A DNA stretch of 64,000 bases from Lachnospiraceae bacterium (GTDB lineage: Bacteria > Bacillota > Clostridia > Lachnospirales > Lachnospiraceae): NCBI GenBank assembly GCA_015057435.1, contig SVEJ01000012.1:1-64000 (forward strand), in the 5' to 3' direction. Below are positions 60,507-64,000 of the stretch, piece by piece. The notes beneath the pieces are model-generated. The model was not told the DNA's origin, searched no databases, and saw only the letters and a list, made by a program, of their open reading frames with translations. Positions within the stretch are counted from its first letter, which is position 1; every line of letters starts with the position of its first letter. The position numbers and the translations under genes were made by a program.

Positions 60507-60578
60507 AAAATGAATGTAGTTTCATTTTAATCACATAACGACAGTTTGTCAATAACAAAATGAATGTTGTTTCATTTT
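60507..60578 (-). promoter_or_regulatory. TetR promoter with two identical-arm operators
   Basis: AAAATGAA-N6-TTCATTTT at 60507-60528 and 60557-60578; minus-strand TTGACA (60547-60552), 17-nt spacer, TAAAAT (60524-60529). Confidence 0.8.
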
Positions 60579-60632: not shown

Positions 60633-62159
60633 CTACAACCCTATCACCTTCGTCGCAATTTTCTCTCGAAAACGTACATCATGCTCCACAAATAATATAG
60701 TTGGCTGATATTCCAATATGAGTTTTTCAATCTGCATCCTTGAAAACACATCAATGTAGTTAAGAGGTTCATCCCATATGTAAAGGTGTGCCGGTGTCAT
60801 CAGACTAGCAGCCAATAACACTTTCTTCTTCTGTCCTTCTGAATATTCTTCCAGATTCTTCGCAAACTGTACTCGGTCAAAGTCTAACTGACGAAGGATC
60901 GCACAAAATAAACTTTGATCCAAATTGTACTCCTTACAAAATGTTGTAATATCACCTTTTAGGCCAGTTGCATCCTGCCCCACATAAGAAATAACAAGTC
61001 CTGATGCAACTTCGCACACTCCCTCTTCTGAAACAATCAGCGCCTCTTCACTCATATCTGCTTTTTGCAAAATCATTTTAATGAGCGTTGATTTACCACA
61101 TCCATTTTTCCCTGACAATGCAATTCTTTCACCTCGATTAATTGCAAACGTTAATCCTTCAAAAACGGATTGCTCTGCATCCGCATATCTTAAGCTATAA
61201 TCCTTCACATCCACCACTGTACTCTTATGATGCGTTAATGGAACAATTTTCAAATCAACCGGTGTTTCTATATCCTGTAGCAGTCCTTCTTTCTCCTCTA
61301 ATTCCCGACCAATTCTTCGTTCCATCTGTTTGACTCTGCTCTGCATTTTCTTGGTTTTCGCACCGATGTAAGCCCTTGTGCTGATGCAACGATCCGGTTC
61401 TTTGATTGGGTCAAAGCCAATCTTTGTGCTCTCATTTTTATCCGCCCAATCCGCAGTACGCCTTGCTGCTTGCTTAAGCTTTCTAATCTCCTTTAGGTGC
61501 TTTTCGTTTTCCGCCATTGCAAATTGGTCTTTGCGCTGCTTATTCTCCCACCAGCTTGAGAAATTACCGCTTTGTACTTCAATACTTCCTCGATTGAGCA
61601 CCAAGCAGTGGTCGGTACAAGCATCTAACAAATCTCTGTCGTGGGACACCAGAATGAATCCCTTCTTTGACGCAAGATATTTTTTCACGACCTCTCGTGC
61701 CTCCTGGTCCAAATGATTCGTCGGTTCATCAATTAGTAAAAAATCATTTTCACCGGAAAATAATACCGCAAGCAAAATCTTTGTCCGTTCGCCCGGACTC
61801 AAGGTACAAAATGGTCTATATAAAAGCTCTGCGTTTTCTTCTAAATGTTCCAATTCACACGTCACGCGCCAAAACTCGCATCCTGCTTTCAATTCCTCAA
61901 TAAAACCTACTGCGGGCAACTGCTTCTGCTTTTCGGTTATCTGATACGGAAAATAGTCAAATACCGTTGTCGTATCTATGGTACCTTTGTAATCATACTT
62001 GCCTAGCAGCAATTTCAAAAATGTGGTTTTCCCCTTTCCATTTCTACCGATAAATCCTAACCTCCAATTGGTGTCAACGGAAAAGGATACATTTTCAAAT
62101 ATATTATCAAAACTTCCATCATAATAAAAAGTCAAATTATTCACACTGATTTGTGCCAT
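60633..62159 (-). CDS. ABC-F family ATPase (Lsa/ARE-like)
   Basis: Two ABC cassettes 'GFIGRNGKGKTTFLKLLLG', 'ALSGKNGCGKSTLIKMIL', 'LLIDEPTNHLD'; no TM segments. Confidence 0.88.
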   Translation of the reverse strand: MAQISVNNLTFYYDGSFDNIFENVSFSVDTNWRLGFIGRNGKGKTTFLKLLLGKYDYKGTIDTTTVFDYFPYQITEKQKQLPAVGFIEELKAGCEFWRVTCELEHLEENAELLYRPFCTLSPGERTKILLAVLFSGENDFLLIDEPTNHLDQEAREVVKKYLASKKGFILVSHDRDLLDACTDHCLVLNRGSIEVQSGNFSSWWENKQRKDQFAMAENEKHLKEIRKLKQAARRTADWADKNESTKIGFDPIKEPDRCISTRAYIGAKTKKMQSRVKQMERRIGRELEEKEGLLQDIETPVDLKIVPLTHHKSTVVDVKDYSLRYADAEQSVFEGLTFAINRGERIALSGKNGCGKSTLIKMILQKADMSEEALIVSEEGVCEVASGLVISYVGQDATGLKGDITTFCKEYNLDQSLFCAILRQLDFDRVQFAKNLEEYSEGQKKKVLLAASLMTPAHLYIWDEPLNYIDVFSRMQIEKLILEYQPTILFVEHDVRFREKIATKVIGL

Positions 62160-62197
62160 ATATATTCCTCCTCATAGATTATAAACACAATAAAAAA

Positions 62198-62533
62198 GAA
62201 ACCATTTGTTGCCAAACAGTTCCATTACATACTATAACCTCATATATTTGTTAAAATGAATTTCCATAATTGCATTACAGAATTTCAATTCTATTTACAA
62301 TATTCATCTCATTTATAACATCACGAATTTCACTGTCATATCATAAATGTTTGCATACAAAAAGAGAGGTTATGAGAACATAATCCACTTTTGGCAACAT
62401 GAGAAACAGTATGCATATTCCTATCCATACCATTCATAAATCTTCATGCAATCAAAAGTAAATTATCTCCTCATCTTTTCACCTCTCTCCTTAAGATGTG
62501 GGTATTGTAACATGCCCCAATTTATAGTGTCAA
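62198..62533 (-). promoter_or_regulatory. Long attenuator-like leader of the ABC-F gene with mini-uORFs
   Basis: -35 TTGACA (62528-62533), -10 TACAAT (62504-62509); SD plus uORF MRR* (62463-62474); uORF MKIYEWYG* (62421-62447); SD-pairing terminator arm 62363-62370; second hairpin 62198-62223 followed by U-run. Confidence 0.6.
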
Positions 62534-62587
62534 GAAATAACACTCTTTTCGCTAGATTATCCATACAATCATATATATAAGAGTTGC

Positions 62588-62616: not shown

Positions 62617-62744
62617 TATGTTGTGTAATTGAACAGAAAGCAGGATGTGATGTTCCGATATTATATGCCCTCTAGTACATATAAGTGAGGTGATGCCTAT
62701 GAGCTGAATTTCTAAGTATGTATCGAAAGGAGGGTGATGCCCCG

Positions 62745-62828
62745 ATGAATACAATGGAAGTCTTAACTTTGTTGTTAGTAGTCTTTGCGGCTCTATCTTT
62801 TATAGATAATCATAATAAAAAGAAATAG
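62745..62828 (+). CDS. Small hydrophobic putative holin-like type I toxin (27 aa, not in ORF track)
   Basis: MNTMEVLTLLLVVFAALSFIDNHNKKK*; strong RBS aaaggaggg; single TM with basic tail. Confidence 0.75.
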   Translation: MNTMEVLTLLLVVFAALSFIDNHNKKK

Positions 62829-63090: not shown

Positions 63091-64000
63091 ATGAATAATC
63101 AAACAAACGAAGTTAAGAAAGAACACGCAAAAACAAATGAAATGGGTACAGGAAGTATCCCTAAGCTGTTCCTAAAACTAGCTATTCCTGCGGTAGTGGC
63201 ACAGCTTGTAAACCTGCTTTACAACATTGTAGACCGAATCTACATTGGACATATTCCGGAGGTTGGTGCAACTGCCCTTACCGGTGTTGGGTTGTTTGCA
63301 GCAATTCTTATGTTTATCAATGCTTTTGCCATGCTGGCAGGTGCCGGTGGCGCACCATTAGCTGCCATTGCTCTCGGCAAACAAGATAAAGACCACGCAG
63401 AGAAGATTATGGCCAATTCTTTTTCTTTGTTATTAGTATTCGCTGTGATACTAACTATTGCATTTTATATAGGAGCTCCTGCACTGCTTACTTGGTTCGG
63501 TGCAAGTGAGGCAACCTTACCATATGCTGTGGACTATGCCCGCATCTATATTCTCGGAAGTATCTTTGTGTTAATTGTCATGGGGATGAATCCATTCATT
63601 ACCACACAGGGATTTGCGAAAATCAGTATGCTGACTACCGTGATTGGTGCTGTTATCAATATCATTCTCGACCCAATCTTTATCTTTGTATTTAAAATGG
63701 GAGTAAAAGGTGCTGCTCTGGCAACAATCTTAAGCCAGGCTGTGGGAGCAATCTATGTGCTTTGGTTTTTGTGCAGTGAAAAAACCATTCTAAAGCTAAA
63801 GAAAAAGAACCTAAAGCTTGATCCGAAGATTTTTGGACCAACTTTGGCTCTTGGAATTTCTACCTTTGTAATGCTTTCTACAGAAAGTATCCTATCCATC
63901 AGTTTTACTACAAGTCTTGCCAAATTCGGTGGTGACTTGGCAGTGGGTGCTATGACCATTATTACCAGTGTAAGCATGCTAGTTACCATGCCAATGCAGG
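63091..64000 (+). CDS. MATE-family efflux transporter (partial, runs off window)
   Basis: MNNQTNEVKKEHAKTNEMGTGSIPKLFLKLAIPAVVAQLVNLLYNIVDRIYIGHIPEVGATALTGVGL; open at window end. Confidence 0.9.
   Translation, partial: MNNQTNEVKKEHAKTNEMGTGSIPKLFLKLAIPAVVAQLVNLLYNIVDRIYIGHIPEVGATALTGVGLFAAILMFINAFAMLAGAGGAPLAAIALGKQDKDHAEKIMANSFSLLLVFAVILTIAFYIGAPALLTWFGASEATLPYAVDYARIYILGSIFVLIVMGMNPFITTQGFAKISMLTTVIGAVINIILDPIFIFVFKMGVKGAALATILSQAVGAIYVLWFLCSEKTILKLKKKNLKLDPKIFGPTLALGISTFVMLSTESILSISFTTSLAKFGGDLAVGAMTIITSVSMLVTMPMQ

Follow-up and report, generated by a model that had tools for sequence, protein, structure and literature searches.

The ABC-F gene in the window, the 64,000-nt stretch of DNA analysed here as part of a 2.7-Mb draft genome, is preceded by a leader that is very probably a ribosome-sensing transcription attenuator of the vmlR/cplR type. 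The leader is a variant of an already known kind of attenuator, with a single upstream open reading frame (uORF) and a bipartite antiterminator. An attenuator had been proposed in a preliminary description of the sequence, and the interpretation is supported by covariation, by conservation of the uORF, its Shine-Dalgarno (SD) sequence, the promoter and the U-runs, by the ribosomal-protection ABC-F encoded downstream and by an architecture like that of vmlR and cplR. From these we infer that ribosome stalling and transcription termination occur at the leader. Pleuromutilins, lincosamides and streptogramin A would be the likely inducers, given the Lsa relationship of the ABC-F protein. The leader family is absent from Rfam, yet it is strongly conserved in related bacteria.

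Leader, promoter and downstream gene

When the minus strand was read directly, all of the elements named in the preliminary description were found where it had placed them. The transcription unit comprises:

62533-62504, minus strand: sigma-70-type promoter, TTGACA-18-TACAAT, with TG before the -10
62498-62160, minus strand: leader of 339 nt, preceding the ABC-F gene
60633-62159, minus strand: gene for an Lsa-like ribosomal-protection ABC-F ATPase, 508 aa

The promoter had been called good, and this held: TTGACA (62533-62528) and TACAAT (62509-62504), separated by an 18-nt spacer, give 11/12 matches, and the promoter is kept among homologs. Within the 60 nt before the uORF SD, at least 10/12 matches occur in 85% of 74 leaders, against 2% of shuffles. 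The end of the -10 usually lies 13-16 nt upstream of the SD in homologous leaders, and from this fixed spacing the transcript is expected to start only a few bases before the SD. Folding of the minus-strand leader RNA, suggested earlier as a check, gave -97.3 kcal/mol, compared with -65.5 (sd 5.1) for shuffled sequences (z = -6.3, 0/100 as low), and in the minimum free energy structure the second hairpin stands alongside the long uORF hairpin. Rfam 15 gave no match in the window at gathering cut-offs and none up to E = 1 in 62100-62560. No description of the leader was found in the literature searched, the coverage of which leaves out most subscription journals.

The ABC-F ATPase predicted downstream was borne out by a score of 449 bits against the NCBIfam model ribo_prot_ABC_F (cut-off 380). 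The nearest solved structure is that of Enterococcus Lsa(A) (7nhk, E 1.8e-114). The best specific model is the Lsa family (NCBIfam NF000167), but its 619.9 bits fall below the curated cut-off of 750, and the protein is therefore called Lsa-like only.

Some neighbouring features were also noted. Upstream of the leader, a divergent MATE-family efflux gene (63091-63999, plus strand) runs off the window. A small ORF with a strong SD (62718-62828, plus strand; MNTMEVLTLLLVVFAALSFIDNHNKKK from an inner ATG) encodes a product resembling a small hydrophobic type I toxin or holin-like peptide; Pfam gave no match for it and NCBIfam only an insignificant one. Between the ABC-F gene and a TetR-type gene lies a good promoter-like site, TTGACA-17-TAAAAT (60524-60552, minus strand), flanked by near repeats AAAATGAAAC(A/T)ACATTCATTTT that look like its operator.

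The uORF and its hairpin

The 5' part of the leader holds three overlapping elements:

62481-62490, minus strand: SD of the uORF, GGAGAGAGGT, doubling as the 5' arm of the uORF hairpin
62463-62474, minus strand: uORF ATG-AGG-AGA-TAA (MRR*), ATGAGGAGATAA, read directly and conserved in homologs
62359-62492, minus strand: uORF hairpin, anti-antiterminator and possibly intrinsic terminator 1, ending in the U-run 62363-62359

Upstream DNA of homologous ABC-F genes yielded 99 leaders after duplicate removal; 84 of them have both the SD-uORF block and a downstream block, and 75 of these are non-redundant. The strong SD and MRR* uORF reported earlier are both in place and both conserved. The SD reads AAGGAGAGAGGTG, with AGAGAGGT at 62488-62481, and in the great majority of the 84 leaders the uORF follows the consensus M-[R/K]-[R/K/I/M]-stop. 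Of the non-redundant leaders, 72/75 have Arg or Lys at codon 2 and 72/75 have Arg, Lys, Ile or Met at codon 3 (Ile or Met in 14/75). The Arg of codon 2 is spelled AGA, AGG, CGG or CGA; synonymous AGN-to-CGN changes there mostly break a hairpin base pair, a sign that the peptide is under selection in addition to the RNA. The erm-type R/K-x-R/K arrest motif is absent after Met in this three-residue peptide. Several close homologs lack the uORF or the terminator.

The SD and start codon of the uORF are buried in the first hairpin, a 5' sequestering hairpin of the vmlR/cplR type as judged from covariation and folding. Its 3' arm, CTCAT-A-ACCTCTC (62376-62364), is followed by T5 at 62363-62359. The pairing of this arm with the SD and uORF start, proposed from the window alone, recurs in the homologs: the 32 pairs are 97.1% standard in 69 aligned leaders, and sliding the partner by 1-3 columns lowers this to 44-61%. 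Poor covariation in homologous leaders had been named as grounds for giving up the attenuator, and the opposite was found, with 34 double-changed cells in the 69 leaders against 10.3 in shuffles that ignore the relatedness of the sequences (0/500 as high). Compensatory G-C to A-U changes occur in 12 sequences at columns 7/191 and in five at columns 24/179, the latter being cases in which the 3' arm has changed in step with a Lys codon 2. Hardly any variation is seen among leaders in the downstream block CATGTTGCCAAAAGTGGATTATGTTCTCATAACCTCTC-TTTTT, as is expected of a strand that has two partners to pair with, and each of the five positions of the U-run is T in at least 64/75.

Predicted terminator 2 and antiterminator

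The 3' part of the leader carries the predicted second terminator, the helices that compete with it and the SD of the gene:

62192-62223, minus strand: terminator 2, hairpin 62223-62198 plus U6 62197-62192, found by terminator scan
62390-62398, minus strand: antiterminator outer helix, upstream arm GTTGCCAAA
62208-62216, minus strand: antiterminator outer helix, downstream arm TTTGGCAAC, overlapping the 5' arm and loop of terminator 2
62366-62373, minus strand: antiterminator inner helix, upstream arm ATAACCTC, overlapping the anti-SD arm of the uORF hairpin
62234-62241, minus strand: antiterminator inner helix, downstream arm GAGGTTAT
62166-62173, minus strand: SD of the ABC-F gene, GAGGAGGA, read directly, outside terminator 2

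The second hairpin and U-run described before the gene are present (GGAACTGTTTGGCAACAAATGGTTTC, then T6) and were called by the scan; a U-run follows the second element in 59/70 homologs, the window's leader included. The 9-nt antiterminator proposed earlier was correct as far as it went, being a perfect complement (GTTGCCAAA:TTTGGCAAC) that covaries, but incomplete, since a second helix of 8 nt had been missed. The antiterminator is bipartite, with the inner helix ATAACCTC:GAGGTTAT nested in the outer one. With the arms placed by consensus, not by complementarity, the outer helix is 97.8% paired versus 96.0 (sd 0.3) in shuffles, with 10 double changes versus 2.6, and the inner helix is 93.1% paired versus 90.4 (sd 0.3), with eight double changes versus 0.9 (0/2000). 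Two of the shuffle measures are modest, because the antiterminator segments barely vary; the count of outer-helix pairs with a double change gave 894/2000. Covarying examples are CCAGA:TCTGG (L014, L029, L058, L096), GTCGCC:GGCGGC (L045, L055, L061, L069) and CTAACC:GGTTAG (L061). By sequence and computation, a mutually exclusive antiterminator and intrinsic terminator are predicted before the gene.

A candidate second uORF (MELFGN..., with its ATG in terminator 2, ATGGAACTG...) was rejected. Its SD is badly spaced and its ATG is unconserved, being missing from several homologs (e.g., L024, L026, L098). The plural "mini-uORFs" of the preliminary description was therefore dropped, and only one uORF is supported.

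Predicted switching and alternative explanations

The switch was modelled on leaders truncated so as to lack the 3' arm of terminator 2. In these the antiterminator reached a probability above 0.5 in 1/70 when the leader was free and in 66/70 when the uORF footprint was blocked; a block of equal length placed in the apical region of the hairpin gave 20/70. In full-length leaders at equilibrium, terminator 2 remained dominant in 49/59 homologs even with the uORF blocked, so the switch must act during transcription, through co-transcriptional kinetics, like other attenuators.

In the mechanism that we propose, the nascent leader would, without drug, bury the SD and AUG of the uORF in the long hairpin. 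With 62398-62364 locked in this hairpin, terminator 2 would form and end transcription ahead of the ABC-F gene; some transcripts may end even earlier, at the U-run of the hairpin itself. A ribosome halted by an inhibitor of the peptidyl-transferase region, at the start codon of the uORF or just beyond it, would cover the 5' arm, loading of the ribosome on the sequestered SD being assumed to occur co-transcriptionally. The freed 3' arm could then pair with 62241-62234 and 62216-62208 before the 3' arm of terminator 2 is made. With the bipartite antiterminator formed, polymerase would read into the gene, and the ABC-F protein would protect ribosomes, closing a feedback loop.

The best-supported role of the first hairpin is that of an anti-antiterminator, and it may plausibly also be a terminator that stops part of the transcripts. 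Quite possibly, at a little less than even weight, terminator 2 is instead the sole terminator, and the uORF hairpin is purely an anti-antiterminator with a U-run that acts as an RNA polymerase pause (e.g., of the NusG TTNTTT type), coupling transcription to uORF translation as in vmlR. There, the SL-1 uORF hairpin is an anti-antiterminator and NusG-dependent pausing at TTNTTT prevents leaky expression (PMC9226507); the U-run fits TTNTTT in many of our leaders, too. The stem and apical part are very long for an intrinsic terminator, and the terminator scan did not call the first hairpin, the loop of which is beyond the limit of the scan. The geometry, however, is that of an intrinsic terminator, as the U-run begins right at the foot of a helix containing G+C, and where the helix is shorter the U-run still adjoins it (a C-to-T change in column 191 paired with G-to-A).

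It is improbable that attenuation is mixed or mainly translational, with the switch mostly governing access to the SD of the ABC-F gene. The cplR and vmlR leaders do combine both layers (PMC10201436, PMC9226507), and in a few homologs without terminator 2 the TTTGGCAGC arm forms a hairpin with the gene's SD, which blocking of the uORF in silico exposes (L009, 0.01 to 0.71; L027, 0.01 to 0.42; L036, 0.11 to 0.42). Some homologs seem, in these models, to hide the SD of the gene in place of terminator 2. Against this reading, the gene SD stayed unexposed on the same blocking in L014, L016 and L035, most homologs have the U-run after the second element (59/70), and the window's own gene SD lies outside terminator 2.

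We consider it very improbable that the uORF senses charged Arg-tRNA or general translation stress and not a drug: it does encode Arg-Arg with the rare codons AGG and AGA, but codon 2 is Lys in 19/75 leaders, codon 3 is Lys, Ile or Met in 29/75, synonymous Arg codons interchange, and the downstream gene encodes a ribosome-protection factor and not a protein of Arg metabolism. Conservation for some other reason, such as an mRNA stability element or a chance hairpin beside an ordinary terminator, is hardly credible, for although conservation falls in short, A+T-rich blocks, covariation is seen in two structures that exclude each other, the uORF is kept at the peptide level together with its SD, and promoter spacing is fixed.

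Distribution and other downstream genes

The covariance model R1 matched 62357-62492 at 143 bits, the only copy in the window's own genome, whose nearest relatives in the collections searched are Lachnospiraceae. Among 397 Lachnospiraceae genomes, 52 carry an R1 leader at E <= 0.01, and 44 of these leaders lie, by position, directly upstream of the same ABC-F gene. Weaker minus-strand matches of the model were rejected as extra copies, being the palindromic shadow of the same hairpin. When 392 genomes of the order were searched with the model, every match fell within Lachnospiraceae; relatives annotated as Ruminococcus flavefaciens and other non-Lachnospiraceae carry the leader. A cultured strain that has it is Roseburia hominis An869 (L047). 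No leader copy was found in the plasmid or phage records searched, nor a strict 31-base pattern in the viral contigs searched, so these elements show no direct sign of its mobility.

Other R1 leaders precede different genes. A second type of ABC-F follows three of them (L125 and L126, both weak matches, and L127, where a PRK06761-like kinase comes next). The leader stands in front of a GNAT acetyltransferase in L122, and in L123 in front of a PRK06761-like P-loop kinase fused to the same GNAT type. It precedes a truncated ABC-F joined to a kinase-GNAT remnant in L120 and an ABC-F cut to 13 codons, followed by a MATE gene, in L124; in L121 it has no large adjacent ORF. In L140, L141 and L161 a PRK06761-like P-loop kinase starts a few bases from the stop of an Lsa-like ABC-F, suggesting an operon. 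The same kinase type was also seen in L142, adjoining GNAT-like and phosphotransferase-like ORFs (the latter judged by eye). On another contig of the window's own genome (L135, bases 1419-1500, G000:C36), directly after a HIT-family gene, a kinase-GNAT gene has only the antiterminator/terminator-2 half of the leader, the uORF half being missing.

Some of these arrangements may stem from deletion of the ABC-F in an ancestral leader-ABC-F-kinase/GNAT operon. Tentatively, and with rather more doubt than confidence, the leader may be a portable drug-sensing module that moves between genes, the kinase and GNAT genes being inducible antibiotic- or ribosome-modifying enzymes and thus unrecognised resistance genes. 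Most leaders of kinase/GNAT genes have no R1 match, so general control of that family by the leader is unsupported.

Among more distant Lsa-like genes of the family, the layout is shared but the uORFs differ. Genes with about 60-68% protein identity have the uORF Mx[I/N]R* (L180, L182, L189, L195, L196, L198, L199), and this class of leader has the antiterminator GCCGAA:TTCGGC. At about 49-60% identity (65% in one case) the uORF is M..SC[K/R]*. The uORFs in L166-L179 and L200-L219 end in SC, SCK or SCR (e.g., MINFSCK, MIIISCR, MENTSCK); those ending in CK or CR were missed by the regular-expression count and were read by eye. The UUCUUGC of these uORFs has complements both in a downstream GCAGGAAAG and in the terminator; the SC-ending leaders look like a sister attenuator class. 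Many of the distant leaders gave no recognised uORF.

Implications

If our reading holds, an inducible ribosome-protection system under a control element outside Rfam is present in a large group of the Lachnospiraceae, which are abundant as gut and rumen commensals, and standard susceptibility tests without inducer could underestimate their resistance. With the covariance model, candidate resistance genes can be sought through their leader; the GNAT, kinase-GNAT, second-type ABC-F and kinase genes linked to it (L122, L123, L127, L120) are such candidates. The uORFs before related ABC-F genes provide natural sensor variants, M[R/K][R/K/I/M], Mx[I/N]R and M..SC[K/R], with which a question of the cplR paper, how uORF sequence relates to inducing drug, becomes testable (PMC10201436).

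Comparison with known attenuators

The predicted layout and logic of the leader are those of the vmlR and cplR attenuators, both established experimentally. In the vmlR leader of Bacillus subtilis, a uORF hairpin acting as anti-antiterminator is followed by an antiterminator and a terminator (PMC9226507). Our leader shares with it a tripeptide uORF in the first stem-loop, an antiterminator and an intrinsic terminator before a resistance ABC-F (PMC9226507). The vmlR uORF, however, is MIN and not M[R/K][R/K/I/M], its SD is single-stranded whereas the SD and AUG are buried here, and vmlR has a separate SD-sequestering stem-loop, SL-4, before the gene.

The cplR leader of Clostridioides difficile and other Clostridia is an attenuator with an MR[I/M] uORF (PMC10201436). 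Both have a three-codon uORF, the cplR consensus overlapping the MRI and MRM variants found here (PMC10201436), and in both a 5' hairpin sequesters the uORF, a terminator precedes the gene and an antiterminator is predicted or known to form on induction. They differ in several ways. In cplR, with a leader of 212 nt, the SD of the gene is held within the terminator hairpin, which extends to the start codon. The leader in the window is longer, at about 340 nt; it leaves about 30 nt between terminator 2 and the gene start, has a U-run behind the first hairpin and is predicted to form a bipartite antiterminator. The gene downstream, moreover, encodes an Lsa-like ABC-F and not one of the CplR subfamily.

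Two further systems are comparable in part. In Enterococcus, the lsa(A) leader likewise has a short uORF and controls the closest of the characterised ABC-F relatives (PMC10201436), but the uORF is reported as MAGN and not M[R/K][R/K/I/M] (PMC10201436). In Listeria, the rli80 leader of hflXr (lmo0762) also works by transcription attenuation, through ribosome stalling on a small ORF that contains an Arg motif (PMC6310831), although that uORF is 14 aa long with RLR and its target is a ribosome-splitting GTPase, not an ABC-F (PMC6310831).
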